Notes under the pieces: model-generated | The model's input: only the letters and a program-made list of their open reading frames with translations | Databases searched by the model: none | What the model was told of the DNA's origin: nothing | Part shown: piece by piece, positions 26,417 through 64,000 of the stretch | Layout of the letters: the number at the start of each line of letters is the position of its first letter | Position numbering within the stretch: the stretch's first letter is position 1 | Made by a program: the position numbers and the translations under genes | DNA from: Cyrtodaria siliqua | Lineage: Eukaryota > Mollusca > Bivalvia > Adapedonta > Hiatellidae | Direction of reading: 5' to 3' | Assembly: GCA_037043455.1 (NCBI GenBank) | Contig: JAWPHD010001353.1 | Span: 62,001 to 126,000 of the forward strand | DNA length: 64,000 nucleotides

Positions 26417-27493
26417 TCACGTTACACTCTGTGTCTCGCCTGTATGTATGCGCATGTGTTTTGTAAGATTGCCTGAATCGGTAAATCCTTTTCTGCATGC
26501 GCTACACTTATATGGTTTCTCACCTGTATGTATGCGCATGTGCGGTTTAAGATCACTTGACCGTTTAAATTCTTTATTGCACACGCTACACTTAAATGGT
26601 TTCTCGCCTGTATGTATGCGCATGTGTATTGTAAGACTGCCCGACTTGGTAAATCTTTTACTGCAAACACTACACTTAAATGGTGTCTCGCCTGTATGAA
26701 TGTACATGTGTGTTTTAAGACTACTTGAGCGGGTAAATCCTTTACTGCATATGATACACTTATATGGTGTCTCACCAGTATGTATCCGCATGTGTTTTAT
26801 AAGATGGCCTGAATCGGAAAAAGATTTTCTGCACGAGCCACACTTATATGGTGTCTCACCTGTATGTATGCGCATGTGTCTTGTAAGACTGCCTGACTGG
26901 CTAAATCCTTTACTGCACGCGCTACACTTATATGGTGTCTCACCTGTATGTATGCGCATGTGTTTTGTAAGATTGCCTGAATCGGTAAATCCTTTACTGC
27001 ACATTCTACACTTATATGGCGTCTCACCTGTATGTATGCGCATGTGTTTTTGAAGATCACTTGACTGTATAAATCCTTTACTGCAGACGCTACACTTATA
27101 TGTTGTTTCACCTATATGTATGAGCATGTGTTTTTGAAGATCGCTTGCCTGTATAAATCCTTTACTGCACACGCTACACTTAAAAGATGTCTCGCCCAAG
27201 TGAGTGCGCATGTGTTGTGTAAGATTGCCTGACTCGGTAAATCCTTTACTGCAAATATTACACTTAAATGGTGTCTCGCATGTTTGTATGCGCAGATGTC
27301 TTCGAAGATGATCTGTCTTTGTAAATTCTTTGTTGTTCATGCTGCATTGAAACGGTTGCATGATGTAATGTCGTCTCAATGTGGTTTCTGGAACAAAATA
27401 AATCTCATAATCAGATTGATACGTTTTACAGTTCAGGTTTATATACCTAGAGATTCTCGCAGAATTATAGATGTACCAGTTATAGTCATCCAT
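26417..27493 (-). CDS. C2H2 zinc-finger protein, ten intact fingers
   Basis: A 358-codon ORF encodes one degenerate finger (QCSMNNKEF...HLRIQ, lacking the second Cys and last His), then ten complete CX2CX12HX3H fingers of 28 residues joined by TGETPYK/TGEKPFK linkers, ending ETQSVT. The classic linkers and finger spacing predict a nuclear DNA-binding protein, but its target is unknown and there is no KRAB, BTB or other effector domain. The ATG lies at 27,493, but TTTTGTTCCAG ending at 27,388 is a good 3' splice site, so the true coding exon probably starts at 27,387 and the first 35 codons may be intron. The TGA end has a counterpart in the left arm, so the length may be ancestral. Expression is unproven. 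Confidence 0.85.
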
Positions 27494-30602: not shown

Positions 30603-30986
30603 CTTTCCTCTTTAATTATGCGATGATCGGACAGGCTGTGGACCCATGATGACGTCTACCTAAAGCCCAAACGACGCTGACGTTTGATGTTTGTCTGCAA
30701 TATTGTCTTGTCGTGCCCTCAATGGTTGGTTTTCTTATTTTTTTTATTTATTTTTTTATATATATACACGAGCATTTTTGTGTTTTACCTGTATTGCCTA
30801 ATAGTTCATGACGGAAATATCGTTATTTACACTGTCCCGTTTTATTGGGATGACAGTAGGGTGTGTAAGGTTGGTTGCACCCTAAATCCTGCTTTAAACC
30901 CCAGCGACCTTTTTTGCACTGACCGTTTCAATGCGGTAGCCCTATTGTCAACCATTTTGTGTTTGTGATGTCTTATTTCTATACAC
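30603..30986 (+). mobile_element. PLE terminal region (3' tail or pseudo-LTR)
   Basis: The beginning (ACTTTCCTCTTTAATTATGC) matches the C-terminal coding end of the adjacent PLE copy near 32,250, and the rest matches the non-coding tail near 32,520-32,690 and 52,480-52,740 (shared TGCACTGACCG, GCGGTAGCCCTATTGTCAA). A truncated tail followed directly by another truncated copy is the head-to-tail arrangement usual for PLEs. It borders the 84-bp satellite. Confidence 0.75.
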
Positions 30987-32307
30987 CTAATCCATCATTA
31001 TTACCACCTAGACCTAGGTTTACGTTTCGTCATCTGAAGAAAGGCATCCAGGATTTTCATACTAAATATGTCTTAGTTCCGGCTGACAAAGACTCTAATA
31101 ATATTATGATTGTTTGACGGCTATATTATGTTAATGTTTTAAAAGAGGAACTCAGAAGCACCGACTCGTACAGTCTGATTAACACAAATGAGAGCGATAT
31201 TATTCGTGACCATAACGCACATATTTCCAAGTTCGGGATCAAGCTGGACGAGAAGCAAAATAAACTCCCTACAATTTAAAGCCCGCTTCATTGCAAACTC
31301 TAGCGCATGTACCACAACTAATGTCTCCAAACGTTTAACATCTTGCCTCACAGCAGTTAAAGAGCATGTGGAAAAGTATTGTGAGAAAGCCCATGATAAC
31401 TCCGGTATCAATTTATTCTGGTAAATAAAACATTCTGGCGAGGTTCTTAACAAACTACGTTATCTACCTCAAGTGTCATCATTACATACTGATGACTCTT
31501 CTACACGTTATACTAATTTACCGCATAACCTTATAAAAGAAAAGCTAATAGCTCTTATACAAAAAACTTTCGCCAGGGAACAAACTGCTTTTTTAGCCTG
31601 TAACAACACTAGGGCGATTTTTACCAACAGTGATCCCGACGGTTACTGTTGATGACTTGTCACCAAGTCTGTGAATCACTCATTCTTATTAGACAACATT
31701 TTTGTCAGGTTGGGACATACCGTTGATAGATAAACCGTTGGCATTCCTATGGGTACTAACTGTGCACCACTTGTCGCAGATTTGTTTTATATTGCTACGA
31801 ACGTGACTTTATGTTGGTGTTAGGACTTTCACCAGATACACAAGCTGATGTCATCGATGCTTTTAATAACACCTCACGCTATCTGGATGATATACTTAAT
31901 TTGGATAATCCTTTCTTTTCTTCTATGGTCCCCAACATTTATCTTCCAGAACTAAGGCTCAATAAAGCTAATGTTTTGGATTCTGTCTCTCCGTTTCTTG
32001 ATTACATCTTTCTATTGAAAATGGTGTAGTAATAACTAAAATAAAACCGAGTCTGCCACTGGTATCTCTTGTTTGTGTTTGTTGCTTCCAAAGGATCCCC
32101 TTTTCAGTATTTAGGAAGATTATCGGTCGTGATAATTTTCATGAGTTATTTAATAAAAGTATTAGAACATTTATAAACAGAGGGTACGACCGAAGAATTC
32201 TGCGGAGCACTGCATGCTTAGTTGTGGACCCTTCTACAGTTTGCAACTATGCTTTCCTCTTTGATTGTGCAACGACCGGACGGGCGGTGGAATCTATGAT
32301 AACGTGT
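30987..32307 (+). pseudogene. Penelope-like reverse transcriptase, 5'-truncated and decayed
   Basis: The reading begins with FRHLKKGIQDFHTKYVLVPA (31,030 onward), the start of the RT fingers in this PLE group. Later blocks are KARFIANSSACTTTNV, LIKEKLIALIQKTF, GIPMGTNCAPLVADL, and the catalytic YLDD in SRYLDDILNLDN (about 31,880). The end is FRKIIGRDNFHELF to STACLVVDPSTV (32,110-32,240). At least four frameshifts or deletions and a TAA in place of Gln (about 31,732) break it. One in-frame UGA (31,115-31,117) sits in an otherwise open run of about 80 codons, exactly where relatives have Cys. The GIY-YIG nuclease part is absent because the copy is truncated. PLE enzymes copy element RNA at chromosomal breaks. 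Confidence 0.88.
31115..31117 (+). other. In-frame UGA at a conserved Cys position of PLE RT
   Basis: The codons read NNIMIV-UGA-RLYYVNVL in one frame, open on both sides from about 30,987 to 31,280. From memory of the family, this position is Cys. Change of a Cys codon to TGA needs a transversion, so recoding as selenocysteine is a serious alternative to simple decay. Confidence 0.6.
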
Positions 32308-32890
32308 TCCTAAATCCTTTAAGGCGGGAACCGATTGAATTAATGTCCTTCACTCCGTTTTGTCGTGCCCTTAACGGTTTTCCGATTGATGCTCTGATTT
32401 CGGACAAGTCATCGCCTACATATGAGATTAACTTCTTAGGTTTAACTTAATTTTTTGATATATTACATACATGAACATCTCTGTGTTTTTTCTTATAACA
32501 CCTATCTACGCTTTCTCTATTGTAAGGGGTTAACTCGGTGGGGATGATGACAGGGTAAGAGTGAGGTTTGGTGCACCCTTAAACCGGTTTAAACTCCCCG
32601 GTGGTCCCTTTTGCAACTGACCGTTCCAAGGCAGTACCCCTGTTGTCAACCCTTATATGTTTGTGATGTGCTGTTTTACTGAATGTGTTTGTGATGTTCT
32701 TTTTGAATCACATTTGCTTTGTAATACTTGTTGGAGTGACTGTATTCTGTGAATGCTATTTTTCTTATTGGACCTTTATTTGGCCTTTTATTCACCTTTA
32801 AATTTGTTCTTTGTTTATGTGTGTGTTTGTGGTTGGCTGTCGTCCTTGAATGATACTTTTCCTGTTCGATTATTATATCTTCTTTCTAGG
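32308..32890 (+). mobile_element. PLE 3' non-coding region
   Basis: This contains the recurring tail blocks GGTGCACC, ACCGGTTTAAAC, CTGACCGTTCCAAGGC and GTTTGTGGTTGGCTGTCGTC that also occur in the other PLE copies (53,520-53,757, 56,478-56,710). A SECIS-like structure would be expected here if the family encodes selenoproteins, but I could not identify one by eye. Confidence 0.7.
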
Positions 32891-34690: not shown

Positions 34691-36010
34691 GACAACGGGG
34701 GTGGGGTTGGGGGCGGGCGGGTATAGAAACTCGGGGGAGGGGGGCAACATAGCTATATGTGTAACCATTGATCAATAAAACACAAAAATATGTAAAAAAA
34801 AAAGAATTTAGAATGGGTGGGGAAAGGAGGGGGTGGGGGAGGCAACATAGCTATATGTGTAAGCATTGACCAATACAACACAGAAATATGTAAAAAAAAA
34901 GAAAAGAATTTAGAGTGGGTGGGGAAGGGAGGGGGTGGGGGGAGGGGGTGTGGTGGGCAACATAGCTATATGTGTAAGAATTGACCAATACAACACAGAA
35001 ATATGTAAAAAAAAGAAAAGAGTTTTGAGTGTGTGTGGGGAGGTGGGAGTGGGGGTGGGTTGGGGTGGGGTGGGGGGGGGGGGATTGGGCCAACATAGCT
35101 TTATGTGTAAGAATTGATCAAAACAACACAGAAATAATTATAAAAAAATCGAGTTTCGAGTGTGGGAGGGGAAGGTGGGAGTGGTGTTGGGGGACGTAGG
35201 GCCAACATAACTATATGTGTAAGAATTGACCAAAACAACACAGAAATATGTAAAAAAAAATATCGAGTTACGAGTGTGGGGTAGGGGGAGGTGGGAGTGG
35301 GGGTGGTGTTGGGGGAGGGTGGGTGGGGGTGGGGGGTTATTGCCAACATAGCTATATGTGTAAGAATTGACAACACAGAAATATGTAAAAAATATATTAA
35401 AAAAGGAGTTTCGAGTGTGGAGGGTGGGAGGGGAGTGGGGCGAGGTAGGGGATCGAAGGCGGGGTGGGCAACATCGCTATATGTGTAAGAATCGACCAAA
35501 ACAACACAGAAATGTGTGTCAAAAAATAATAATTAATCGAGTTTCGAGTGTGTGTGTGTGTGTGTGGTGTGGGTGGGGGTGAGAGAGGGTGATGGGAAGG
35601 TCGGGCGGGGTGGGTGGTGGTGGGGGGCAACATACATAACTATATGTGTAAGAATTGACAACACAGAAATATGTAAAAAAAATAACTACAGTTTCAAGTG
35701 GTGTGGGGTGTGTGGGGGCGAGGTAGGGATGGGAAGGCGGGGATGGGGGGATGGTGGTGAGCAACATCGCTATTGTGTAAGAATTGATAAAAACAACACA
35801 GAAATGTGTAAAAAAAAAATGGAGTTTCGAGTGGGTGGGGAGGGGGGGGTAAGTAAGTAAGTGGGGATGAGAAGGTGGGGCGGTGGGGGGATGGTAGGGG
35901 CAACATCGCTATTGTGTAAGAATTGACCAGAACAACACAGACATATATAAAAAAAATATGGGGTGGGGGTTTGGTGGTGGTGGGGGTGGGTGTGAGGGGG
36001 TGGGCCTGGG
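34691..36010. repeat. G-rich minisatellite, about ten units of 100-160 bp
   Basis: Each unit has a fixed half, CAACATAGCTATATGTGTAA followed by an A-rich stretch with ACAACACAGAAATATGTAAA, and a variable half that is nearly pure G/T with many GGG and GGGG runs on the plus strand. Units start near 34,744, 34,842, 34,960, 35,091, 35,203, 35,345, 35,469, 35,630, 35,761 and 35,900. The G runs could form quadruplexes. Proline-rich minus-strand ORFs are artefacts. Confidence 0.9.
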
Positions 36011-38003: not shown

Positions 38004-38367
38004 GCTTTAGATCGTCAAATATTATATTATTTAGAAGTGACATTATATACACGGATTTTATTTAAATAAGCTCTTCATTATTCTACCGTAGGTTTAAATA
38101 TGTGCAACTTGATATAATAAAAATATAAAATCCAGAATGCCATGTGTCTCTTTGAATGAACAACAATGTTTCAAAATAAGATTTTATTTAAATAAGCTCT
38201 TCATTATTCTACCGTAGGTTTAAATATGTTAAATTATTGATGCAATATAATAAAAATATAAAATCCAGAATGCCATGTTATGTGATTGTGAAACTTCGAA
38301 TGTAATGTGATTGTGAAAATTCAAGCATGGAGATCATCAGTATAAAGTATAACGTTTTCTTCCGCAG

Positions 38368-39788
38368 ACCTGTAATACATGGGCGCACTTCAGATGTCAG
38401 AATGTATCAAAGTCGGATCGTAAACTCTGGGGCGACAAGTCATTGTCATATTATTGTGTGTCATGTCGCTCAACAGAAGAAGGTTCATTTGACTATGTTA
38501 AGGGCATTGAAAGACTTGAGCAGGACTCGCTTGCCAGTCTTGAACAACTCACAATCGGTGTTAGAAGAGAAATATTGCTCTTGAGAAATATCCGTTTCGA
38601 CAGTTCTGTGCACACAGATTTCAGTCACCAAGCTCAAGACAAAGTCGCCAATGCCGTCCTACATGAGTATTACAGTACAAAACTGATAGCTCTAACAAGT
38701 ACTGGCAACGGCGATTGTTTTTTTAACTCATTCCGCTTCATGAATCAAGTATTCCGACCTCCTTTTGTAGACCCTGACAAGTCGACTTTGACAATTATGT
38801 GGAGTAACCTTCGTCCTCCAAAAAAGAACGGACTCTTCTCGCGAAAACGCTTATCTTGGATACCAAAGCACTTTGTTCCGCTAGTCAGCACAAACCAAAA
38901 AATGCAGAAAGTTGATCTCCAGACAACAAAAGCATATCAATCATTCCTTCATGACATTGCTGACAATTTAACCGATAACCAAATATCAAACTTGACAGTT
39001 GGTAGTGACGCAGAACTGGCATTTAAAAACGCAATTAAACGCTGCTTTCATGGCTCTACACACGTCTTATGTATCCGACACATTAAAGAAAACACAAATA
39101 GACACATGGAAAATGTTGTTGGTTATCCAAAGACTGAACGGGACCAAATTCTCACCGCCATCTACGGAAAAGACGGACTTATTCAAAACACAGATATAGA
39201 CACTTTTAACTACCGACTGTCAAATATACAACAATTAATTACAGAGAAAGACAACACCGTTGGGGAAAAAAATGCATGCAATATTTTCAAAACAAGCTAT
39301 TACCACTCCTTAAAGAGCATGTAATTGAACCGGTAAAACAGGGGGAAATTCCACCCAATTGGACAAATAATAACTGCGAGAGTGCAAACCATATTCTGAA
39401 AACGGCCACCCAATGGAAAATGCAAGACCTTCCCAAATTTATTAATACACTGTACAACATCGTCACTAGTGAACAGGAGGGGCACTGTCGGGCAATTAGG
39501 GACACGGGCAATCATCGGCTAATTGACAGGTACACCCATCACCAAACTGACATAAGCTACTGGTCTACAATGACAGAAGAAAGCAGACAAAAACGACTAA
39601 AGCGATTTCTGACGGACTGCGGTAAAACTAATACCAACACAGTAAGTAGTATCGACAGACGGAATGAGGACAACTCAACGAACACCAACAGCTGGTCGCA
39701 AGCCCGAACAGAGAAAGAGGAAACGGGCCGAACGATCAAGAAACCCGATTTCAAAGAGGAGACTGTAGTCGGTAAGGGGGGTCTTTGA
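38368..39788 (+). pseudogene. MULE transposase with PHD finger and OTU remnant, one frameshift
   Basis: A pyrimidine-rich acceptor (GTTTTCTTCCGCAG, ending 38,367) precedes an exon that opens with the second half of a PHD finger: CNTWAHFRC followed by YYCVSC. Then comes an OTU-protease-like block with the Cys-box TGNGDCFFNSF (about 38,705) and a His-box-like PKHFVPLV (about 38,862), with much of the domain between them apparently missing. The MULE core follows: GSDAELAFKNAIKRCF (second catalytic Asp), CIRHIKEN (CX2H) and NNCESANHILK (third catalytic Glu). The first catalytic Asp region is not clear. The frame changes by one base around an A7 run at about 39,263-39,270, so the copy is probably non-functional unless this is slippage or an assembly error. 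Confidence 0.82.
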
Positions 39789-49434: not shown

Positions 49435-50564
49435 CACAGGGGGTCGGCACGGAGTTGGGATGGTGTTTAAATGGTTTGGTATAGAGTCCTAAAACCCCAA
49501 ATATCGAAAACCCATATTACTAAGTATACATATTAACAAGGGGTCCGGCTCCCAAAATGCCATTCTGTGCAGAGAACATGTATAACTGGCCAGAAAATAA
49601 AGGATTAACATGATAATCCATTCACATAGGGCTCTATTTCAAGCTATAAAACGTGTGTATCTAAAAATCATATTCATTTATTCATAACATGTACCACCTT
49701 TTGACACCAGACAACCGAAACGACTAATTTACACCAACATATCTAAGTAGGAAGAGATCGCGTAACACCACGCCACCTCATTAAAACGAGCTTCCCGAGA
49801 AGGCAGCATGCAAAAACGCTTCAGCCGATTGAAAACAAACATGAAATGTTTCACAAACCTTTGTGCTTCAACTCGTGAAAGTCCAACTGTTCTATAGCGA
49901 GTCATTTTTTTATTTTACCGAACGAAATCCCAAGGCCACTGCCATATTGTTGTTGTTGTTATTTAGACTAGATCATCTAGACGTTTATTCATTTTCTTCA
50001 CAAATGAACAAACGTCTAGATGATACAGTATAGAAAACAACAACAACAGCAATATGGAAGTCACCGTAGAAATTCGTTTGTGACAATCAAAAAATGTCTC
50101 GCTATAGAGCAGTTGGACTTTCACGAGTTGAAGCACAAAGGTTTGTGAAACATTTTATGTTTGTTTTCAATCGGCTAAAGCGTTTTTGCATGCTGCCTTC
50201 TCGGGAAGCTCGTTTTAGTGAGGTGGCGTGGTGTTACGCGATCTCTTCCTACTTAGATATTTTGGTGTAAACTAGTCGTTTCGGTTGTCTGGTGTCAAAA
50301 GGTGGGACATGTTATGAACAAATGAATATGATTTTTAGATACACATGTCTTATAGCTTGAAATAGAGCCCTATGTAAATGGATTATCATGTTAATCCTTT
50401 ATTTTCTGGTCAGTTATACATGTTCTCTGCACAGAATGGCATTTTGGGAGCCGGACCCCTTGTTAATATGTATACTTAGTAATATGGGTTTTCGATATTT
50501 GGGATTTTAGGACTCTATACAAAACCATTTAAACACCATCCCAACTCCGTGCCGACCCCCTGTG
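49435..50564. mobile_element. Near-perfect hairpin element, hAT-like target duplication
   Basis: The two halves of this 1,130-bp element are reverse complements of one another almost throughout. The ends are CACAGGGGGTCGGCACGGAG and its complement. The centre is CATTT-TCTTCAC-AAATG at 49,990-50,006, so the loop is only 7 nt and sits at the geometric middle. It is flanked by GTAGTGGG at 49,427-49,434 and 50,565-50,572, an 8-bp duplication. An 8-bp duplication and a CA(C)AGGGG terminus fit the hAT superfamily. There is no ORF, so mobility would need a transposase supplied elsewhere. Transcripts would fold into long double-stranded RNA. Confidence 0.93.
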
Positions 50565-50572
50565 GTAGTGGG

Positions 50573-51284
50573 GGCATACAAACCCGCATCAGTGGAAATA
50601 TTTCCAATAAAACAACAACGAGGAATCAGTATGGATAAAAAAAATGTTATTTAACAATGCGAAGTAATGTAAGTTTGTATGTATACATCATAGCAACATT
50701 GTGTTAAATAGTTTAGGTATGTCTTCAAAATGTTTCTTTAGTATAATTAATGCAGACAGATTAGTGTAACTTACAGTGAAATACAAGCAACAGCACAATT
50801 CAGAGTTTAAAATGAGATCTGCCCGGTTATTGATTACAATGTTTTATCACCTAATTTATGGTGTGGGAGTTTAATAAAGTCATGATATATTTATCATATT
50901 ACACTAATAAATACACAAATAAAAGCCCGGAATCATTGTTTGGTCTTTTCCATTCAGCTAGAAGTACATGAACATCGGAATTGGCATGTCAATTTCTGTA
51001 ACTGTTCAAAAATACAGATTAAGGAAATCAATGAGGTATATTTCGTTGTTCGGTGTCGTACGTCGAAAAAGATGCGAGTCAACGTACGTTGTCATTCAAA
51101 CGTACACCGTCAGCAAACAATATATATTGGCAGCTACAGTAATAGATGTTCCTTTTAAGGCTTTTTTTCGCAGATATGTGATAAACAGAATCTCACATTC
51201 TTGCCTACTTAATATTGAATTTATAAAACTCGTTGGATAACAAATACTTGTATCCAACTCCTTAAACAACTGCGGTATAAATAA
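50573..51284. other. AT-rich sequence, no gene
   Basis: Overlapping short ORFs at 50,940-51,293 lack motifs on either strand. Confidence 0.4.
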
Positions 51285-51935
51285 GAGGGCCACGATGGCC
51301 CTGAATCGAACACCTTAGGTTCTTTGCAATGATGAAAATATTGTCCTCTCGCAAATGCTGATTGAAGATGTTTTTGTCTTTCCTTATGTAAGACTATGTA
51401 TAAAACATGCAAAACCTCTACATACAAACTTTGGACCCAGTGGTTGCAGCCATCGTTGACCACAGGGACTTCAAATGAGCAAACTTGATAGAGCAGGACT
51501 TAGCAAGGTTAGCAATCATTAATAATAATAAAGAACAAGAGGGCCTGTGGATGCTCTAAAAGTTAAAATTACTCTTATCAAGGGGTTTCATCATTCATTT
51601 CAATACCATTTTATAAATGTAAAAACACAACAACACCCTCAACAGAGATTTAAACCCGCAACTACATGCTAACAATTTAAAACAAGATTTTTTAAGATTT
51701 CCCTATATAAGTCTAGGTAAATTATGGAAAATCTTTATATACCAAAGGTATGTGAGGAAGCTATCCAGCTGGCTTGCGGAACGTCGGTGGTACTACCCAG
51801 GTGCCCGCCCGTGCACGAAAATTGCCCGGAGGGGCACCTGGGGTCTTCCTCCACCAGTGGAAGCTGGAAAGTCGCCATATGACCTTAGCTGTTGGTGCGA
51901 CTATAAAATCCAATTCAATTCAATTCAATACAAAA
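51285..51935 (+). mobile_element. SINE-like bivalve repeats
   Basis: GAGGGCCACGATGGCCCTGA (51,281-51,300) opens a stretch I recognise as a common bivalve dispersed repeat. At 51,751-51,935 a second one reads GAGGAAGCTATCCAGCTGGC, ACCCAGGTGCCCGC, GGCACCTGGGGTCTTCCTCC and AAAGTCGCCATATGACCT, and ends in a CAATT-type short tandem tail, as retroposed SINEs do. No coding function. Confidence 0.65.
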
Positions 51936-52389
51936 TTTGGAAAAAATAACAAACAAAAAAAACGCATCCAAACTGAATACAATAATAAAAAAGAAAAAGA
52001 AAAGTTTACCTCCAGCGGGATTTTAACTCACGGCCGTACCTTCGCAGCATACAAGAAGTAATTCAAATACTTTTCTATGGTGGCCATCTTGGATGTCACG
52101 TATAACTTATTTTAAAAAATTTGAAAAACATTTATCTAAGGATCATTCATGTGAAGTTTGGTCAAAATTGACCAAGCTGTTTCTGAGAAGACGATTTTTT
52201 GAAGATTATCCCTATATAAGTCTATGTAAAACATGTGACCCCTGGGGCGGGGCCAAATGTGACCCCAGAATCACCATTTGAACAAGCTTGGTAGAGGACC
52301 ATAAGCTTATAGTAAATGCAAAATATTAAACATCTGGCTCTTGTAGTTTCTTCAGATTTTTTTTTAAGTATTTCCCAATACAAAATAGA
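51936..52389. other. Unassigned repeat-derived sequence
   Basis: Phrases such as GTGAAGTTTGGTCAAAATTG and CCTATATAAGTCTATGTAAA recur in bivalve intergenic DNA. No gene is supported. Confidence 0.4.
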
Positions 52390-52740
52390 TATGTAGCATT
52401 CAAGGACGACAGTCAACCACAAACACACGCAGAAACAACGACTTTAAAGATGAATAAAATGCCAAATAAGACATCGCGAACACAAAAGGGTTGACAATAG
52501 GGCTACCGCCTTGGAACGGTCAGTTCGGGGGGTTAAACCAGGTTTTCTATGGTGCACCAAACTTCACACTTACCCTACTGTCATCCCAATAAAACGGGAC
52601 AGTGTAAATAAAGAAATCCCCGCCATGAACTATTCTCTAACCAACAAGGCAGCATTAATAGGCAATATAAGTAAAACACAAAGATGCTCGTGTATATATA
52701 AATACAAAAAAAACACAATAGCCTAGAAAGCCACAAAGAA
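52390..52740 (-). mobile_element. PLE terminal region of the minus-strand copy
   Basis: Contains on the minus strand GTTGACTGTCGTCCTTGAAT, CCGTTCCAAGGCGGTAGCCC and GGGATGACAGTAGGGTAAGT, the recurring pseudo-LTR blocks. It lies 3' of the coding remnant, as expected for a PLE read on the minus strand. Confidence 0.75.
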
Positions 52741-52987
52741 GGTACTCAAAGATTTGGCAGATGCCAGATGCCAGAATAACAAGAAAACAAACCACTGAGG
52801 GCATAAGACAATACTGCAGGCAAACATCAAACGTCACCGTCCTTTTGGCGAACTGTAAATGGGTCCACCACCAAGCAAGCAGTGCGATGCAAAATGATAG
52901 GGCCATAACCTCTTTTAGTAAACCTTTTAACAAATTTAACAAAGATAGTATGAAAGTGATCATTACCAAGGATCTTATCAAAAAAAA

Positions 52988-53112
52988 AAAGAGTATGAGA
53001 TTGGACCTTTGGTAACGGCCGAACACGACATATACGAAATATTGCAGTCTCGGTTTGATTGAGACTGTTCATGAACGGTAGTGAAATATGCTAGCTACCG
53101 CTCACTCCCTCT
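52988..53112 (-). repeat. Short dispersed element, shortest copy, inside the PLE
   Basis: Only the last 125 bp of the family, including both hairpins, is present. It interrupts the PLE frame between VIYKLRG and DKILGNDHFHTIF, so its insertion postdates the PLE. Confidence 0.82.
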
Positions 53113-53519
53113 AAGTTTGTAAATTACGTCAACACAGAAGTCAGGTTGTGATAGTCCTTGTCGCAGAAGAGTTCTTAAATTACTTTTATATTTGGAAAGA
53201 AGATCAGGGTTACGATAATACAATTTTGCAAAAGTTTTACGAAGTTTATGGTAACGGTAGCCCTGATGGAGTAGCTTTTTAGTTATACAAAGATTAAGAA
53301 TATTGAAGTCTTCAACTGGAGTACAAGCTCTAGAAAAAAGAATAAGTTCAGACACATATACCCCATAAGAAGTTGCTCGGGAACATCCCCATCGAAATAG
53401 GGATAAGTAGCAATATCAAAATTAAAATCATCTCACTTGTCATATATTTTGCTAATTATTTCACAATTTCCGATGGAGAGATGTAAATCGAGAAAAGCAG
53501 CGTTAGTATCAAAATTAAA

Positions 53520-53757
53520 GAAATATAAGAAGATCGGACAGGGAAAGTAGCATTCAAGGAGGACAGTCAACCACAAAACACAGAAACAAACATGGAAACA
53601 GACAAACAAGAAGGCAAAAGTAATAATAAAAGTAAACGACATCACAAACACAAAAGGGTTGACAATAGGGCTACCGCCTTGGAACGGTCAGTAGCAAAGT
53701 AGGCCACTGGGGGTTTAAACCGGTTATAGGGTGCACCAAACCTCACACTTACGTTGA
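53520..53757 (-). mobile_element. PLE terminal segment inserted within PLE coding sequence
   Basis: A pseudo-LTR-like block (TTGACAATAGGGCTACCGCC, GGTTTAAACCGGTTATAGGG on the plus strand) separates the YLDD region from the LDLHLSI block of the RT. It matches 56,478-56,710 in inverted orientation. Confidence 0.75.
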
Positions 53758-56269
53758 AGTTCTTTAGGGTATATATTATTAGTAGAAAAGACAAGGTTGT
53801 CAATGTTCAATATGTCATCCAGATACCGAGAGAAAGGCGTCAATGGCATATGCCTGGGTATCTGGTGAAAGACAACATGACATTTCTTTTATAGCAATAT
53901 AAAAACAAATCTGCGACAAGGGTTCACAGTTCGTACCCATATGGATACCAACAATTTGTCTGTAAACGGTCGTTCCATACCTGAGGCTGAACCCCACCCC
54001 ACCCCCTTTTTGGTACGGAGTATTCAGGGCGTTTTAGGCGGTATTCAGTACGCACGAGCCTGGTACGCAGTAGTCGCACAACACACTATTTAGTATTTAG
54101 TACTCATAAAATGCATTTTTAAAACCAAATATGTACAAAAATATCATAAAATGTAAATAAAGGTCTAATTTTGATAATCGGGCCTTCATTCATCTAGCAG
54201 ATACCGGCTCTTAGGTGTTTAAATAGGTCATCATTCAAATTAGGGTTATTGCCCTTTGTAATTTTATACTTAGAGTTTATGTCCGGTACTCGGTCTCTAA
54301 AATGAGGAGTATTCAGTACTCGTGGGAGAGGGGGTTACATCCTCATACCTGACGAAAATATTATCTAATAGGAAGTTGAGTGCTTCACAAACTTCTTGGC
54401 AAGTCCACATAGTGTAATTGACATGTCGCCAGTTCTTAGATATCTCCGCCCTATTGTTGATGTGGGAGTATATTGACAATAGTTTATATAACATAGTTGC
54501 ACGTGCTTTATATACGTGCTATTGTTTGTCGGAGGTATCGTTCTGGTTTGCTTGGTGGAAATTAATAAATGATTGACAACTGGCGACATGTTGTCTAAAC
54601 TGCCGTCAGTAAAAAAACGCTTCAATATTATAACAAGCCAAAAATGTAGTATTTCCCCTAGCGAATGATTTTTGAATAAGAGCAAATGAATCAGCTTTCT
54701 TTGATTAGGTGATGTGGTAAGGTTGTATATAGAGGTCATAAGTGCTTATACATGAAACTTAACGTTTATTGCAAATTTTATCAAGAACGTCTGCTAAATT
54801 TTTAATAGACCAAAACAAATTAATCCCAGAGTTTTCATAAGGTTAAGCACAATATCGTTTAACGTGATCTTTAACGGCAGTAAGACAAGAAGTTAATAGT
54901 TTGGAGATGTTGGTGGTTGTGCAGGTACTAGAATTCGAAATAAAGCGGGCCTTATAAGGATTTTTTTTTATGAAATTTAGGAATCCAGTACTTAGTTGGC
55001 AGTTTGTTCTGCTTTTCGTCTACCCCAGCCTTGAAAGTAGTGCCCCGAGTGATATGTGTGGAAACAACATCATACTGGAGTATACGAATTAGTGCTACCG
55101 AGTTCCAGAGATAAAACATTGACGTAATGTAGGCGTAAAACAATAATTACATTATTAACTCCTTTATCAGCAGGAACTAAAACAAATTTATTATGAAATT
55201 TTTGAATTCCCGATTTTAAATTAAAACCTAGGTCTCGGAGGACATAAAGAGGAGTTAGCATTATAAAAGTTAATACGTGCATCTATAATTTAAAAAATTG
55301 ACTTTTTTCAAGTAGAATGGCATTAAAATCCATAGTTGAAGGTAATCTATACTTAGGACCTTTTGAAAACAGATGCCGAATACGTTTATCAACAATATCA
55401 AAATTACCAGTGATGACATGACCTGCTGGAGCATAGCACAATTCTGATGTGTTTACTATATCAAGGTCAGAAACTATTTTGTTGTATTTTAAAATAATAT
55501 TTCTAATAGGTTTGTTATACTTATAACAAATTACAGGACTTTCGGAATTTTTGAAATATTTAGGGATAGAATCAACTACATGATTATCTCGAAATGAAAG
55601 CCAATACCTTTATTAAGATACAGTATTTTAAAACAAAACTGGCGTGATCAGACTCCTTGTCAATATGCGGTCGGAGAACATGTTGTGTGTAGCTTTGAAT
55701 TATGGAAGCAGTGTTATACAAGGGATCTGTACCAATGAAAATGTTGTCTGCTTCCTCGTCGACCAACTTAAGTGAAGAAATGGACAAAGAGGTAAGTCGT
55801 GAAAGCATAGAGTGCTTTCCAGACTGTTTAAAAATAGTAGGTAAATCAGCGACTGAAATAATTACACGCGATTTACGTTTGATGTTACCATAACGCTTAC
55901 GACTATGAGACCTAGAGTTTAGATTTCGAATAGAAAATATGTCAATATTAGGATCTTTTGAAATATTTCCTTGTTGATAGATATTGTCATTAAGGCCGAG
56001 TGGATACGGTGTCTGCAAGTTTTTCATCTACTTAAGTTCTGCAATATGTCTAGCTTTTATTTTAAAGCTTTTAGTAGCATCATTATCATACATTATATAT
56101 TCAACCGAACAGTAACGTTACTAAAAGTATGACCTGACTGATGAAAGTGTTGGTACAAGTATTTTTTTTTAACTTTTAGGATTACCTGCATTATATTTAT
56201 GTTCACGAAATCGAACTTTTAAAGATCGACCTTTTTTCCAACATATTGTATACCGCAACGTGGTGCATT

Positions 56270-56305
56270 TCAAGTCAAAACGTAAATGACGTGTGATGAA
56301 CGTCA
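56270..56305 (-). other. Two in-frame UGA codons at conserved Cys positions of the GIY-YIG domain
   Basis: UGA occurs at 56,303-56,305 and 56,270-56,272, eleven codons apart in one open frame: VD-UGA-RSSHVIYVLT-UGA-NAPRCGIQYVG. In PLE nucleases the usual pattern here is C-x-S-x-x-VIY-x-(I/L)-x-C with a following Cys, and only the last Cys is a normal codon. Selenocysteine is the best single explanation, and decay remains possible. Confidence 0.65.
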
Positions 56306-56477
56306 ATCAACATTTGAAGCTAGACATACATTAAACATTCTACCATTAACAGCTGATTTAATGGTGGACTTGCAAGATAAATAATTGCAACAACTGCACC
56401 TCTTAGCATTGCACTTATTACTAGAGGCAAACACCCTGCGTCTTGAATGAACTAAACGATTCCTGAAAGGAGACTTT

Positions 56478-56710
56478 TGCACCCTAGAACCGGTTTAAAC
56501 CCCCAGTGGCCTACTTTGCCACTGACCGTTCCAAGGCGGTAGCCCTATTGTCAACCCATTTGTGTTTGTGATGTCGTTTGCTTTTATTATTACTTTTGCC
56601 TTCTTGTTTGTCTGTTTGCGTGTTTGTTTCTGTGTTTTGTGGTTGACTGTCCTCCTTAAATGCTACTTTCCCTGTCCGATCTTTTTATATTTCTTTATAT
56701 GGTATTTCCC
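56478..56710 (+). mobile_element. PLE terminal region in inverted orientation
   Basis: ACCGGTTTAAACCCCCAGTG, CTGACCGTTCCAAGGCGGTA and GTGGTTGACTGTCCTCCTTA read on the plus strand just outside the 5' end of the minus-strand PLE. Inverted partial copies next to a PLE are typical of this group's integration. Confidence 0.8.
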
Positions 56711-57621
56711 CAAAACAGGTGATTCTAGAAGAGTACCTGAAACTTTTGAGCCGTTATTGAAAATCTGGGTAATATTATTAGAAGGAATACACACCATTTA
56801 GTTATGTGCAAAATTATGGAAAAATGAGTGTAATTGAATTTTTAGTGTAACTGACCTTTTGACCACCACCCCGAGGGCCCCTGAGTGTCCCCGACCCCGA
56901 GGAGCGTGGAGCCATCATCATAATGTTTCACTCGAGACATAATTACACAATTTTTTTTTTAATCCACCACCCCACCCCCACTGGGCCCACGCGGGCAGAC
57001 GTCAAGGTTCGAAATAATAGAATCGTTTGATATGTTGTTTATCTTTCATAGACGATTACATTCACCAAGTTCTGTGCAAAAATGACAAAGTGAATTTTTA
57101 GTGAAATTTACCTTTTCAGCCCCAACCACCCCCCCCCCCCTCCCCCACCCCCGACCTGAGGGCCCCTGGGTTCTGAGACAAACATACTGTTGCTCTTGCA
57201 CGCCGTCAACATATGGTGAAGTAATACCCTAAGTTTGGTTGAATTCCGTCGACCGGTTTAGGAGGAGGTGCGGTAACGGGCGGACGGACGGACGGACGAA
57301 TGGAGGCGATTTTAATATACCTTGTTTTTTTCAAAAACGTGGGTATAATTATTAAAAAATAAACTTTAACTATATAGGTGAAATTTACAAATAAGGTATA
57401 TGATAATGATATTACCTTTTTTTGGTGCAATTTTGACATATATTTCGGGGGTGGAAAAATGGACACAAACTTTCCAGTTTCCAAATAAACACAGTCACGT
57501 ACGTCAATTCTTTTTTAACAAGTTACACATTCTTTAGTCTGAAAATTTGGATACGTGAGTGACTTCTGTCAATAGCAATTAAATAAGTCATACGCGATTT
57601 CCGGCGATTAAGTATATTTGC
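56711..57621. other. Non-coding stretch with C-rich repeats
   Basis: Two related segments (near 56,845-57,000 and 57,085-57,260) contain CCCGAGGGCCCCTGAGT or CCTGAGGGCCCCTGGGT and end with a GGACGGACGGACG run at 57,281-57,296. These are dispersed bivalve repeat features. No gene is seen. Confidence 0.5.
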
Positions 57622-57625
57622 TTAA

Positions 57626-58929
57626 GGGTGCCCTCTGGTGAATATCAGTATAACAAGAATTTTTAATTTCCCTGTTTTTTATGAATAACATATTACTAGT
57701 TAGTTTCTGGAAAAATAATGATATGCTGGTGATTTAACTTTTTAGCAATACTAATCTTTAGTAATACACACCCAAAGCCCAAAGTGGGGTTTTAAATTCA
57801 GAATCAGCTGAAAATTGGGTATGGCTTTAGAAATCACCCAATATTTTAGATAAAAGAAAGAAGCAAATGAAAACTAAGTCATGAGAAGCTAAACAGGTAT
57901 CAGTAAAAAAGTAAGAAAACCCTTAAAATAATAAAAATAGGAGAAATCTTTGAAGTTTTCAATTTCAGCACACTTTCTAATAAAAAACACACACACACAG
58001 AAAATTGCATTTTTGGGCAAATTTTGGGCAAGGCAAACTTATAGAAATAATAATAAGAAATTTGTAATAAACTGATATATAATAGAGAATTATAAGGTTA
58101 TCAAATAAATGTGATAAAAAGCATATGTCGGTATTCATCTAAAAGAGATAACAATTAAAAATGTTAAAGACCCATCATTTTATTACAGAAAAAGATAGAT
58201 ATATGTGCTTTGGTTTTATTTATTATATCAAAAGTTATTTACATGACTGGCATATATACACCTGATAAACAAACATCACATCTAATTTAATTACAAACAG
58301 TGTATCAGTATATAATATACACAATATGATCAAAATACGTTAAAAGTATGTTGATTTACCCAACCCACTTCATTTTGTATGGTATATTTTACCAGACTGT
58401 TGTATTTGCTTGTATATACTAGAAATAGCATCTGCCATGTTAGAATTAAAATTACCGTTAACACAATGTTATATCAAATTCAAATAATCTATCTCCAAGT
58501 GTGATACATCATACAATATACAATAGTTTTTACAGACTTCACGATATAATTCCTGCCCCTATGGTCTCAAAACTGTGGAAGCGTGTGCGATATACCATTA
58601 TTATGAATAAATCAAACCCTAAGCCTGGTATGTGGCACAATATACCAAAGTTTAGAGATCAGATGTGTAGGAATTATATCTCGAGGCTAAAGCCCTCGGG
58701 CACATATAGGGTTTCAGGGATGACAGAGTTGCTAATATGAAAACTGACATATAATGATCTATAATTATCGAACCTATATCAATGGGGTTCATGATTGTGA
58801 ACATGTATACTAAGTATCAAGGATGTATGACTAATGATTTTGGAACATCTTCCCACTTTTTACAACATCCGCATATGCGTTGCCCGAAAATATGCGCAGA
58901 TCACGCTAATTCGTCACTAGAGGGCACCC
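57626..58929. mobile_element. 1.3-kb element flanked by TTAA
   Basis: The element begins GGGTGCCCTCTGGTGA and ends TCACTAGAGGGCACCC, 16-bp inverted repeats with one mismatch. TTAA flanks both ends (57,622-57,625 and 58,930-58,933). TTAA duplication with GGG/CCC ends is known from piggyBac-type elements, and Kolobok also targets TTAA. The interior is AT-rich. The single 79-codon frame at 58,501 has no recognisable transposase motif, so the copy appears non-autonomous. Confidence 0.85.
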
Positions 58930-58933
58930 TTAA

Positions 58934-60053
58934 TATAGTATTCTCAATAATACGCAGTGATTCATGCATTTACTTCCTCTTTGAAATGCAAGACTATTTG
59001 ATTGTTGGTTTTATATTTCAATAGGATCATGGAGTAACCTTAAGGGAGCAACCATGATATTCTCGTGGGAGAGGTCCGGGCCATTTAAGTGTATGGCAAA
59101 CCTCGTGACATATTTTTTAGGAATTTGTTTTTAGTTGATAAAGTGTGTCAGTTGTATCATAATATTGTTTGGTATGGTCATGCATGTTTTTATGGGAGTA
59201 ATATTCTAGTCACTTAAGATATTGCTTTTGTATGGACAATTATGACTAGAGTCATTTAATTGGATCCCCATCCTGTTTTGAAATCCACCCACCACCTCAA
59301 TTATTAGAGCCACCTATTGTATTTATTGTTTCAAACTGACCCCTTTCCAAATGTTTGCCCCCTAAACTGAGGAAGTATTGTGCTCAGCAATCCCTTCCAT
59401 CAACTAAATTATTAGAGACAACTATTTTTTTTTTAAATTGTTCCCTTCCCCACGCTCAATAAAATAAATGTTTGCTCCCTAAACTGGCGAAGTGGTGTTC
59501 ATACGCGAGACGAAATGTGTTCATTGTGTGGGCACTGATCAAATGCAAACCGATATCATGTGAAGTTATTCATGATAACAAATACAACCTCAAAATCACA
59601 AACTATATAGTGTGTTGACTGAAAGTTTCAAAGATTGTGGAATATCTTGTGGATTAGGATACGATTAAAACTATATAAAGGTGGGTTTAAGTTATATTTA
59701 TAGTTTAAGAAATGTTAATGCAATTTGTTGTTAGTCGCCTTCTACTATGCTCCACTTACAGGATGTAGTTAATACTGTCACAAAATGTCACGGGTAGAGC
59801 GTACTGGTCGTATATAGCTCTTGTATCGGTTACACCCAAAATCTATTGTTCGAGTTGAAACAATTTCACAATATTCATGATCTATTCATGTAACACGTAA
59901 AAGCGTGCACATTTTAAGTGGCCGCCAGAGAGGCCGTGTCATAAGTTTAGTTTTGTGCTAATGCATGTAAACGTATAGGTATATTTTCCTTAAACGGCAA
60001 AATTGTATAAGGGGCCTGTCGTGTAGATTCAATACTGTAGATTTAGCCACGTT
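58934..60053. other. Non-coding sequence with a short tandem duplicate
   Basis: A segment with ATGTTTGCCCCCTAAACTG (about 59,350) recurs near 59,470 (ATGTTTGCTCCCTAAACTGG), a two-unit tandem of about 120 bp. No gene recognised. Confidence 0.5.
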
Positions 60054-61307
60054 TGTCACGGACTGAACGGGGGAAATAATGATTTGGGCGTAATGTTTGC
60101 TATAAAACCCATTGTCTTCTAGCTATCGCCGGGATCGTCGAAAGTACTTTGTTGTAACAGAGATTGGACGGCAAATTTCACAGGCAACATGTGGTTAGTA
60201 ATTTTATTAAACTTTTATCGTATATTTGTATTCAGTGGGCGGCGCCATCTTGTTTGGCGGTTACGACATCCGGTTAGCATTGATGTTTCTCAAACATAAC
60301 TTTAGACTAGCATATGATTTTGAAGTTACTTTATTAGATGTAATTATTGTAATTGATCATTAATTGTAAAACAATATTAATTTGATAACAGTGGATAATA
60401 GGTGCATTAGTTAACGTTGGCGTATAACTCAGTGATTGTAATACACGATTGTTAACATTGCGTGCAAACATAACTCAGTGAGTGTAATATATGAGTTATT
60501 TGATCATGTTTATATTACATGTATTAGGGGCATTGATTAACAGCGACGTACATAGCGTATACATGGCGTTGTAGAATATGTATACATTGCTACTCATCAT
60601 TAGTACAGCTTACATATATTGATTGAATAATGATTTGTTTGGGTAATGATAATTATGCAAGATTGTTATGTTTGTAAACCGACAGCTAAAACGTATGTAT
60701 AATTACAGCCTAAGCCATCCAGGATCTAAGCCATCCAGGATATAAGCCATCCAGGGTTGGAGTAAGCCATCTAGGTTTGGATATCCAGGAGTGGAGCTAA
60801 GCTTCCACGAATAACGTTACAAGCGGTGGAGACGGTCCCCGTACCTGCGCAGCCAGGTTTTACTAACGATAACCCCCGGGACACAAGGTGGGCCCGTTAC
60901 CAGTCCTCACTGGAGGAATATCATTCACAATCTCAGTGGAGATTAACTGTCATTGCATCGCGTCATCAACCCTTACAGAAGGCATTTGATGACAATCATC
61001 CATTGAATTCGCGCATCATCATCTTCATGAGCTCTCGCGCATCACAGTTATCGCGCTAGATCAACATTGTTATAGCTTTAACAACACTTCAGTGTCTTAG
61101 ACATTCAGTATTTATAACAATACTAAGAACGTCTTAAACGTTCAGGAGAACATTCTTTTCATAGTTCATTTGTGTATTCGCTTGTTTTTTTAGATAATTG
61201 TATATATATTAAACATATTTTAAAAGTTGCATTAAACTTATGTAAATGCATTCACCGTCATTGATTCTTTCCTGAGTTAGCCCAACCACTAAGGTCATCC
61301 TGTGACA
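60054..61307 (+). repeat. Probable 5' LTR of the Ty3/gypsy element
   Basis: The end is fixed by a primer-binding-site-like sequence two bases downstream. The segment would start TGTCACGG and end CTGTGACA, giving six-base inverted ends TGTCAC/GTGACA. A TATA-like TATAAAA lies at 60,101. Four short repeats of TAAGCCATCCAGGAT type occur at 60,710-60,790. An alternative start with the same TGTCACGG lies at 59,786. Without the 3' LTR, which is outside the window, the start cannot be decided. Confidence 0.45.
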
Positions 61308-61309
61308 AC

Positions 61310-61328
61310 TGGTTTTCAGAGTAGTGGG
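61310..61328 (+). promoter_or_regulatory. Candidate primer-binding site
   Basis: TGGTTTTCAGAGTAGTGGG follows the LTR end CTGTGACA by two bases. It resembles, with small gaps, the complement of a tRNA-Leu 3' end (TGGTGTCAGGAGTGGGA), the primer of many Ty3/gypsy elements. Confidence 0.5.
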
Positions 61329-61976
61329 ATTTTGGGCGAAAACTGAAGGGAAAGAATCAATAAGTGATCTTTATTATGATATACTAAATCTCTACTTATT
61401 ATTTTAGAATTGTGTACCACCCTCTGATCCATCAGGGCGACTGTCGACGATCACGGCCACAGCTTGGAAGACAGGTCAAGACACGACAAGGGTAGGGTGA
61501 GTCCAAACTGTTGTTTTGTCCGTTCTTTCCTTGGCGCGAGGTCGCAGTGGTCTACACGAGTGGGTCTCAGGCACTTTTGCTCAATAATTTGGGTGTTTGT
61601 TTTACCTCCCTTGATTTACACATAGTATCCAATTAGGCTGGCGAACAAGACGTTCTACTCATGTTGTGACACTCGAGTATACTTATATTGATGGGAGAAG
61701 TAAATATACATGTACATGTTATGCACATTTCTATGATTGTTTAAGGTTATGTCCAATATCAAATATAGATATTTTATGTAGTGTATATGTTTTGTGGAAG
61801 CTAGATACTATCTACACATAATCGTTAGTAGTTAGCGCTAGTACAAATGTGTATGTAACTTGTCCTATGATGATGCCCAGGTATTTACTGAGGACACAGT
61901 GACTTACCATTAGTAGTTAGGTGAGTAGAATTATTAGTGACGTGTGTATTGTAATTATTGTAGTTAGTAGTCCACA
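61329..61976 (+). other. Untranslated leader of the Ty3/gypsy element
   Basis: About 650 bp without a long ORF between the primer-binding site and the gag start. It probably contains packaging or splice signals, but none can be identified with confidence. Confidence 0.5.
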
Positions 61977-64000
61977 ATGTCCATAGACATGACGTCCATA
62001 AAGGATCTTACGGAAATGGGAAAGGAGTTAGGGTATGCTGGAGAGGAGCTTAGAACCTTTGTTAAAGACGAACAGGCTAGGGAAAGGGAATTTAGACTTA
62101 AGGAAAGAGAATTAGCAAAGCGGGAAAGGGATGAAGAGAAAGATAGGTTAGAATTCGAAAGTAGATTAGCGAAAGAGAAGCTAGAATTAGAAAGTAGATT
62201 AGCTAAAGAGAAGCGAGATGATGATAAAGAGAAGGTAGAATTAGAAAGTAGAATAGTAAAGGAGAAGCAAGAGTTAGAACATGAGAGGTTCGAAACAGAT
62301 GGTAGACTAGCTAAGGCTAAGATGATAATGGAAAGGGAGCAAAAAGAGTTTGATCATAAGTTAGCTTTAGAGTTGGAAGCAGCTAAGACACATAGTAAGG
62401 AAAGTAAAACTGAAGGGAAAGATAGTTATTCTGGGAAGTTAAAAGGTTCGAAGTTACCATACTTTGATGCTGACAAAGATAACATGGACAGTTACTTGTT
62501 ACGGTTCGAACGTTATGCTGAGTTACAGGAATGGACCAAAGATAAGTGGGCAGTTCATTTAAGTGCGTTATTGAGAGGCAAGGCCTTAGATGTATTTTCT
62601 AGATTACCTAGTTTAGATGCTCTTGACTATGACAAGTTAAAGGATGCTCTTTTAAAGAGATTTGAGTTAACTGAAGAAGGTTTTAGAAAGCGGTTTAGAG
62701 CTTGCTTGCCTGAGAAAGGCGAGTCATTTATTCAGTTCATTAGTAGATCTAGAAATTACTTAGATAGGTGGTTAGAGTTAGGGAAGGTAGCGCAGACTTA
62801 TCAGGGCCTCATAGATTTCTTGTTGCGTGACCAGCTATTCAATGTTTGTAGTAGAGATCTGTTCTTATTTCTTAAAGAAAGAAAACTTACTAGTGTAGGA
62901 GAAATGGCAACACAAGCAGATCAGTTTGCCGAGGCTAGAGGTGGAGCTCATAATGTAGTGTCGAAAGACAGAACTTTTAGAGATAGGCAAGGGGACGATC
63001 ATAAACAGAAAGGCCAGAGTGGAAACTATAGAGGTGGTGGTAGTTCGATGGGTGCTAGAGGAGGTAGCAATAGTGGTAACATAGGTAGACCTTTTATTCG
63101 TTGTCGTCACTGTAATGGGAATCATGCTTCACATGAGTGTAGGAAAGCGGTGAAAGTGTCCGCTGTCGTAGACAACTTTAGTGACAATAGTAGAGTGGAC
63201 AACAATGTAGGGAATCAGAACCAAGGTTTTAACAACCCATGGAATTTCGGTAGAGGTAGAGGTGGTCAAAACCGAGGTAGAGGTAAAGGCAGAGGTAGTA
63301 ATAGTCCGGTTATTAAAACCGAGAGTAGTAGCTGTTGTGTTAAAGCGGATGGTGTAATGACGAAGATCGGAACATGTCTCTTTCCGTATGCAAATCTTCC
63401 AACGGCAGATGGTAGAGTGAACGGCACGGACGTAATTGTAATGAGGGATACAGGTTGTACAGGTGTGGTAGTTAGGCGTAGTTTAGTTACGGATGACCAG
63501 TTGGTAGGTAAACAGTCACCGTGTATGTTGTTAAATAAGTCGGTAGAGCACGTGCCAATAGCGAGAATAGATGTAGATACACCTTTCTTTAAAGGGACTA
63601 CAGAGGCACTATGTATGGATGACCCGATGTATGATTTAACGATAGGGAACATAGATGGTTCAGCACTTCCGGTAATGTCCGATTTTAGAAGTAGCATAAG
63701 TAATGCCGTAGAGACTAGAGCGCAGGTTCAGAAGCAAGCTCAGGCTTATAGAAAATTAAAGGTTCCTGCAGCCGTAGGTGACATATCTAAAGCGGAGTTT
63801 ATAGAAGCACAAACTCAAGACGAGTCATTAGGTCCTTGTAAAGTGAAGGCCAAGGACGGTGTAGTGAAGAAGTGTAAAGGGTCCGGTAGTTGTAAGTTTG
63901 TACATAAGAATAGGTTATTGTACAGAGAATTTGAAGATAGTGGTAGTAGACAGTTTCACCAATTAGTGGTACCTACCCAGTATAGAACGACAGTGCTTAA
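61977..64000 (+). CDS. Ty3/gypsy gag-protease-integrase polyprotein, 5' part (runs off window)
   Basis: An ATG at 61,977 opens 674 codons without a stop to the window edge. Residues about 25-155 are Glu/Lys/Arg-rich and coiled coil, with LESRLAKEK repeated. A gag capsid-like part follows at about 160-310 (KLPYFDADKDNMDSYLLRFE). Next are a zinc knuckle CRHCNGNHASHEC (one residue shorter than CX2CX4HX4C) and RGG-type repeats. The retropepsin part has RDTGCTGVVVR (DTG active site, about residue 492) and YDLTIGNI. The frame then continues through AVETRAQ and SKAEFIEAQTQDESLG into NRLLYREFEDSG and FHQLVVPTQYRTTVL, which resembles the zinc-binding start of integrase. No RT lies between protease and this segment, as in Gmr1-like elements. 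The open frame suggests a young copy. Confidence 0.88.
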   Translation, partial: MSIDMTSIKDLTEMGKELGYAGEELRTFVKDEQAREREFRLKERELAKRERDEEKDRLEFESRLAKEKLELESRLAKEKRDDDKEKVELESRIVKEKQELEHERFETDGRLAKAKMIMEREQKEFDHKLALELEAAKTHSKESKTEGKDSYSGKLKGSKLPYFDADKDNMDSYLLRFERYAELQEWTKDKWAVHLSALLRGKALDVFSRLPSLDALDYDKLKDALLKRFELTEEGFRKRFRACLPEKGESFIQFISRSRNYLDRWLELGKVAQTYQGLIDFLLRDQLFNVCSRDLFLFLKERKLTSVGEMATQADQFAEARGGAHNVVSKDRTFRDRQGDDHKQKGQSGNYRGGGSSMGARGGSNSGNIGRPFIRCRHCNGNHASHECRKAVKVSAVVDNFSDNSRVDNNVGNQNQGFNNPWNFGRGRGGQNRGRGKGRGSNSPVIKTESSSCCVKADGVMTKIGTCLFPYANLPTADGRVNGTDVIVMRDTGCTGVVVRRSLVTDDQLVGKQSPCMLLNKSVEHVPIARIDVDTPFFKGTTEALCMDDPMYDLTIGNIDGSALPVMSDFRSSISNAVETRAQVQKQAQAYRKLKVPAAVGDISKAEFIEAQTQDESLGPCKVKAKDGVVKKCKGSGSCKFVHKNRLLYREFEDSGSRQFHQLVVPTQYRTTVL

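Follow-up and report, generated by a model that had tools for sequence, protein, structure and literature searches.

Naiads are Penelope-like elements (PLEs) in which a GIY-YIG endonuclease stands N-terminal to the reverse transcriptase (RT), with a CxC motif in the linker between them; they carry several in-frame UGA codons for selenocysteine (Sec) and occur in many copies per genome. They are further marked by a CCHH motif, the absence of a hammerhead ribozyme, a pseudo-LTR or tandem arrangement, an insertion-in-fingers domain, and a bias toward insertion into microsatellites. Selenoprotein-encoding Naiads of clams and spiders have reportedly been described by Craig, Yushenova, Rodriguez, and Arkhipova (Mol Biol Evol 2021). 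Canonical PLEs of the Penelope/Poseidon type combine a telomerase-like RT with a C-terminal GIY-YIG domain in one ORF and have a hammerhead ribozyme, according to PMC11167929. Cellular SECIS elements of the kind treated below all lie in the 3'UTR, with a fowlpox SECIS in coding sequence as the exception, as stated in a review (PMC8310308).

The window analyzed here, a 64-kb stretch of DNA from Cyrtodaria siliqua, contains a copy of a Naiad-type element on the reverse strand. The preliminary description had pointed to an endonuclease frame with two UGA codons, and both the frame and the codons were confirmed: TGA is found in frame at 56305-56303 (site 1) and at 56272-56270 (site 2). With TGA taken as a residue, the frame is open from 56494 to 56222 and reads VD-U-RSSHVIYVLT-U-NAPRCGIQYVG, where both U are TGA. 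The two TGAs occupy Cys positions of a GIY-YIG domain that lies N-terminal to a Penelope-type RT. The frame breaks after YVG; homology resumes in another frame (GRSLKVRFREHKYN, from about 56231) and later shifts again. The parts of the copy are as follows.

56711..56788, reverse strand: upstream fragment of the same ORF (IPSNNITQIFNNGSKVSG...), cut from the endonuclease by an insert
56478..56697, forward strand: 220-base repeated insert in the Naiad copy; a 96% identical copy at 53516-53735, on the other strand, is also inside the element
56219..56494, reverse strand: decayed Naiad-type copy, GIY-YIG endonuclease portion, by homology; last codon TAA at 56221-56219, element start at about 56477
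56303..56305, reverse strand: UGA site 1 (TGA), at a Cys position ahead of HVIYVLT
56270..56272, reverse strand: UGA site 2 (TGA), first Cys of the presumed CCHH motif
55593..56237, reverse strand: remaining endonuclease and linker sequence, split over two frames and with stops, by homology
55319..55594, reverse strand: linker part without the CxC stretch (PKECECN in other copies; a 9-residue gap here)
55136..55138, reverse strand: codon of a third site, in the RT (site 3), TTA here and TGA in 17 of 23 copies
53110..55316, reverse strand: RT pieces broken by frameshifts, stops, and inserts, by homology
52848..52937, reverse strand: C-terminal RT piece (KFVKRFTKRGYGPIILHRTACLVVDPFTVR), by homology
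52765..52842, reverse strand: 3' remnant of a SECIS and 3'UTR, with neither stop codon nor SECIS 5' arm, by blastn match

The window element is a dead fossil copy that is unable to make the protein. Its damage comprises frameshifts, stops, inserts, loss of the CxC linker, and deletion of the SECIS 5' arm, so that at 52842 the remaining 3' arm directly adjoins RT sequence. On the reverse strand, the endonuclease continues in pieces from 56237 (KKGRSLKVRFREHKYN...) and at 56176-56105 (KVKKKYLYQHFHQSGHTFSNVTVR), and the linker is split between 56105-55593 and 55594-55319. The TTA codon at RT site 3 is shared with a near-duplicate copy, L002. The preliminary description did not include the RT site or the loss of the CxC stretch and SECIS 5' arm. 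A SECIS scan of window positions 50000-64000 gave no match, and a Pfam search of the window pieces found nothing. Because this copy is dead, the earlier label of probable selenoprotein can apply only to the element family, for which the reading of the UGAs as selenocysteine codons is upheld below; for the window copy itself, the label does not stand. Shorter matches to the 220-base repeat occur in the window at 30875-30972, 32572-32669, 52393-52524, and 15508-15595, and the repeat is perhaps a short non-autonomous element.

The order of the GIY-YIG domain N-terminal to the RT, on the same strand, is shared by the window and the genomic copies, and both domains lie in one ORF in L047, a Naiad-type homolog on contig NYSS01000008.1 of a bacterial metagenome-assembled genome. 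Site 2 (U or C) and the C of PRCG, together with H135 and H158, which are invariant in an alignment of 15 sequences (A4), are the presumed CCHH residues. Pfam searches with two genomic copies (L016 and L014) returned nothing above cut-off, leaving both domains of the family unrecognised, and the domains were assigned via L047 and a protein relative, P0095. In L047, Pfam placed GIY-YIG at residues 303-334 (17 bits) and RVT_1 at 822-1013 (16.1 bits), both below cut-off, while the GIY-YIG match of P0095 was above it (24.5 bits). No relative was found among PDB sequence profiles or in IMG/VR and plasmid searches. A bacterial genome collection yielded L047 and a 32-residue match, L048, which was not used. 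The Naiad assignment was made from shared features, which leaves a little room for a different PLE group whose genes are ordered alike. We consider such a group very improbable given the N-terminal GIY-YIG domain, the CxC linker, the CCHH-type residues, the multiple UGAs, and the lack of any hammerhead ribozyme match at E values up to 10 in 16 loci. We refer to the element as Naiad-type.

The assembly (2.88 Gb, 26,948 contigs) yielded 13,331 first-look candidates, 40 of them scored, and UGA usage was assessed in 40 endonuclease copies. These were the window copy (L001), L002, 20 longer stretches (L009 to L028), and 18 short ones (L029 to L046); L003 to L008 were left out, being the same copies as those contained in the longer stretches L009 to L014. 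Site 1 was TGA in 39 of 40 copies (TGT in one), and site 2 was TGA in 36 of 39, with TGT, TAA, and TTG once each. The third site, in the RT after NNVIIV (PADKAANNVIIV-U-RLHYVNVL), was TGA in 17 of 23 copies, TTA in four, and CGA in two. Since the copies share ancestry, 39 of 40 does not amount to 39 independent events; when copies at least 97% identical were merged, TGA was found in 29 of 30, 28 of 29, and 15 of 18 groups at sites 1, 2, and 3, respectively.

Sites 1 to 3 were the only majority-TGA columns among 751 in-frame columns, 234 in the endonuclease and 517 in the RT (endonuclease reference positions 1 to 235 and RT reference positions 60 to 576, with at least 10 copies per column). At all other in-frame columns, TGA made up 33 of 18,360 codons (9 of 7,351 in the endonuclease and 24 of 11,009 in the RT), and the next highest columns were an RT Gly codon (6 of 25) and an endonuclease Cys codon (3 of 36). 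The linker was counted apart and had no column with more than two TGAs among about 20 copies; in its CxC stretch (ECECN), the first Cys was TGT in 19 of 20 copies and the second TGT or TGC in 18 of 20. Majority-TGA columns at endonuclease codon 261 and RT codon 583, together with stop-rich codons 259 and 56, were rejected as artefacts because the references L017 and L014 are themselves frame-shifted there, as judged by eye from their translations. The proposed comparison of genomic copies thus showed UGA dominating at these columns only, and the alternative pattern, UGA equally frequent at non-Cys columns, was absent. With only two majority-TGA columns among 234 in the endonuclease, the two UGAs of the window are beyond chance. 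Every copy that was read through was damaged somewhere, and a fully intact single ORF of the family was not seen.

Ninety-five protein relatives were retrieved with the L016 endonuclease as query, and 87 of them align only past site 2. Four (P0001, P0004, P0008, and P0020; 42-55% identity) have W at sites 1 and 2, which probably represents TGA under gene calling with translation table 4. P0095 (36% identity) has Cys at both sites, P0046 and P0048 have Cys at site 2, and P0091 terminates one residue short of site 1. When the 95 relatives were compared with P0106, 42 ended at the first Cys of the CxC stretch (within 3 residues) and 35 at RT site 3 (within 2 residues), while 13 ended elsewhere and 5 were unaligned. 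The ends at these two sites probably reflect ORFs called as terminating at UGA. As 77 of the 95 relatives end at RT site 3 or the CxC Cys, four positions behave as UGA sites across the wider family. Retroelement fragments of this kind occur in metagenome and assembly protein sets (P0001, P0004, P0008, P0020, P0102, P0104, P0105, P0106, and P0115), some of them seemingly translated with table 4, with UGA shown as Trp.

With the L014 RT as query, 2,076 relatives were found among 8,000 candidates scored, and 120 were listed. RT site 3 is covered by 25 of the 120 listed, with Cys in 19, W (taken as TGA) in five, and Arg in one; of the other 95 listed, 87 begin past site 3 and eight have a longer, unaligned N terminus. 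On a midpoint-rooted tree of 36 rows, eight of them unlabelled, the Cys, UGA, and Arg labels need three changes, the minimum being two. L047 has Cys at all four positions, and its residues at sites 1, 2, and 3 align directly with those of the family, with 32% identity in the RT and 26% in the endonuclease. The view that the two UGAs of the window stand at Cys sites was borne out: where more distant relatives have a sense codon, it mostly encodes Cys (both sites in L047 and P0095, site 2 in P0046 and P0048).

A SECIS would be expected at the 3' end of an element that recodes UGA, and the Rfam model SECIS_1 was scanned at E values up to 10 against 16 of the 20 longer loci (all but L020, L024, L025, and L026). 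Sixteen matches were found in 13 of the 16 loci (none in L015, L019, and L028), the best at 39.4 bits. The pattern that would have counted against recoding, intact full-length relatives all with UGC or UGU and no SECIS, was not observed. Five of the 16 matches reached the gathering score of 35 bits (L014 at 39.4 and 38.9, L010 at 38.0, L009 at 35.9, and L021 at 35.2), and seven had E values above 0.1. All 16 lie within same-strand blastn matches to the L014 3' end, one being the query. Eight mark the 3' end of the very copy that was retrieved (L009, L011, L013, L014, L016, L017, L018, and L021), three (in L014, L023, and L027, of 16 loci) mark a SECIS-bearing 3' end upstream of the copy in the same orientation, which may bear on a pseudo-LTR or tandem arrangement, and five matches (three in L010, one each in L012 and L022) are in other fragments or could not be placed.

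The SECIS stretch had 36 blastn matches, and 23 of these ends were aligned (A3); the 13 dropped were near-duplicates (L011 twice and L024), cut or short matches, and divergent fragments, including those at window positions 32288 and 52842. The conserved cores were kept: AUGA in 21 of 23, the loop TAAAG in 17 of 23, and UGAU in 21 of 23. Paired cells made up 91.3% of the alignment, versus 25-47% when the pairing was slid, and pair 21-48 is U-A in 11 sequences and C-G in 10. In shuffles of the SECIS pairing, two of five measures were weak (29/500 and 182/500).

The ORF ends within the SECIS, of which the 5' arm encodes the last residues (VDPMMTPT), the 3' arm is 3'UTR, and the UAA stop with the next A forms the AA(A) motif (UAAA) of the apical loop. 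In L009, L011, L013, L017, and L018, the open frame ends VDPM-M/L-x-PT and then stops; in L017, the SECIS spans 5906-5966, with the final sense codon ending at 5928, both on the reverse strand. TAA is at the apical-loop position in 20 of the 23 aligned ends. A C-terminal MMxxT is found in 23 of the 120 listed RT relatives, some with Cys and some with probable UGA at site 3, and this spread may point to an arrangement that is old and under selection and that is not known from cellular selenoprotein genes. One tentative reading, to which we give somewhat less than even odds, is that fusion of the SECIS to the gene end would oblige terminating ribosomes to unfold it, coupling termination to recoding, with MM-x-P-T fixed by RNA structure. 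In the literature searched, with the main Naiad paper lying outside it, we found no description of a SECIS overlapping a stop codon and none of Penelope-like elements joined with a SECIS or selenocysteine. As selenoprotein-encoding Naiads have reportedly been described already, the stop within the SECIS is the part that may be new.

Sequence related to the element recurs elsewhere in the window.

30977..32304, forward strand: second, more distant Naiad-type copy (RT part), whose two best pieces match the L014 RT at 54-64% amino acid identity
31115..31117, forward strand: TGA at RT site 3 of the second copy (NNIMIV-U-RLYYVNVL)
32287..32350, forward strand: weak match to SECIS_1 (19.6 bits, E 4.1; under the gathering score), 3' end of the second copy
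30637..30699, forward strand: SECIS_1-like match (22.9 bits, E 0.5; under the gathering score) within a further 3'-end fragment of the element

This further Naiad 3'-end fragment (30597 on) directly follows an 85-base tandem array of 18 copies at 29078-30602. Among the remaining contents of the window, two long adjacent open frames of 481 and 1167 amino acids lie on the forward strand at 2339-7288, the longer resembling, by eye, the protein of a non-LTR retrotransposon that has both an endonuclease and a reverse transcriptase. Also by eye, a 358-amino-acid open frame with C2H2 zinc-finger repeats (HTGETPYKC type) was seen on the reverse strand at 26417-27493, and further zinc-finger-like frames at about 23400-25750. 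Tandem repeats that are G-rich and have a period of about 112-139 bases occupy 34739-36004, and two overlapping frames at 38353-39788 on the forward strand resemble, by eye, a PHD/OTU/transposase-type protein.

Coding constraint was compared on both sides of the UGAs. Median pairwise dN/dS in frame was 0.67 upstream of site 1, 0.64 downstream of site 2, 0.77 upstream of site 3, and 0.41 and 0.49 in two stretches downstream of site 3. With the frame shifted by one, the same stretches in order gave 0.85, 0.94, 0.62, 1.16, and 0.94, so that excess constraint is absent immediately upstream of RT site 3 (0.77 versus 0.62 shifted). The values past the UGAs support translation beyond them. Because copies mutate after insertion, the constraint on active elements is likely stronger than these figures.

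Translation past the UGAs could in principle mean that UGA is read as another amino acid, such as Trp, or by plain readthrough to give several products, with the hairpin serving some other purpose. Some sources do translate the sites as W, as table 4 would, but the other sense residues at site 3 are Cys (19) and Arg (1), L047 has Cys at all four positions, and the hairpin fits SECIS_1 with its AUGA, AA, and UGA cores; we regard this explanation as very improbable. Decay alone, in which nonsense mutations of a pseudogene are spread by in-trans copying of a dead or truncated master, is hardly credible and was rejected, for although the window and other copies are damaged and the family copies share ancestry, relatives at 42-55% identity show W, taken as TGA, at the same Cys columns, 77 of 95 relatives stop at RT site 3 or the CxC site, and the frame past the UGAs is constrained, so that decay is contradicted by the presence of the SECIS and by conservation across families.

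The best explanation, with a probability of about 0.93, is that the window holds a dead copy of a Naiad-type Penelope-like retrotransposon whose family inserts Sec at in-frame UGAs under the direction of a SECIS. The sequence-based support comprises UGA conservation, Cys in homologs, the SECIS, and constraint past the UGAs. In living copies, one ORF would encode the N-terminal GIY-YIG endonuclease, the CxC linker, and the RT, and host ribosomes would insert selenocysteine at the three in-frame UGAs, directed by the 3'-end SECIS. The GIY-YIG domain would nick DNA and the RT would be primed at the nick, the mechanism proposed for other endonuclease-bearing PLEs. At site 2, Sec would act as a ligand in the CCHH site, with the site 1 Sec a few residues ahead of it, and Sec at site 3 would lie in the N-terminal part of the RT. 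We infer Sec insertion, metal-binding or redox roles for the residue, and a dependence of transposition on Sec.

By all sequence signs, a many-copy transposable element family depends on the host selenocysteine machinery, and UGA and Cys appear to exchange at four positions of the Naiad-type family. This makes it possible to ask why a retroelement uses a costly residue at metal-ligand and RT positions and whether host selenium status limits transposition. A stop codon built into the SECIS would provide a compact natural experiment on termination meeting recoding. Gene finders cut such proteins at UGA; in the protein collection, 77 of the 95 relatives look like fragments of this sort.

The Cyrtodaria siliqua family shares its domain order, CxC linker, several UGAs, and many copies with the Naiads reported from clams and spiders. 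It has three UGA sites and its first CxC Cys is mostly TGT, whereas many relatives apparently have UGA at that Cys. L047 has the same domain order in one ORF but, unlike the Cyrtodaria siliqua family, has Cys and no UGA at the sites. Like the Penelope/Poseidon elements, as these are presented in PMC11167929, the family combines an RT with a GIY-YIG domain, but its endonuclease is N-terminal and no hammerhead match was found in 16 loci. The fowlpox selenoprotein has a SECIS that overlaps coding sequence, as in the Naiad-type family; according to PMC8310308, the fowlpox SECIS lies within the coding sequence, whereas that of the Naiad-type family spans the stop codon and is part coding and part 3'UTR.
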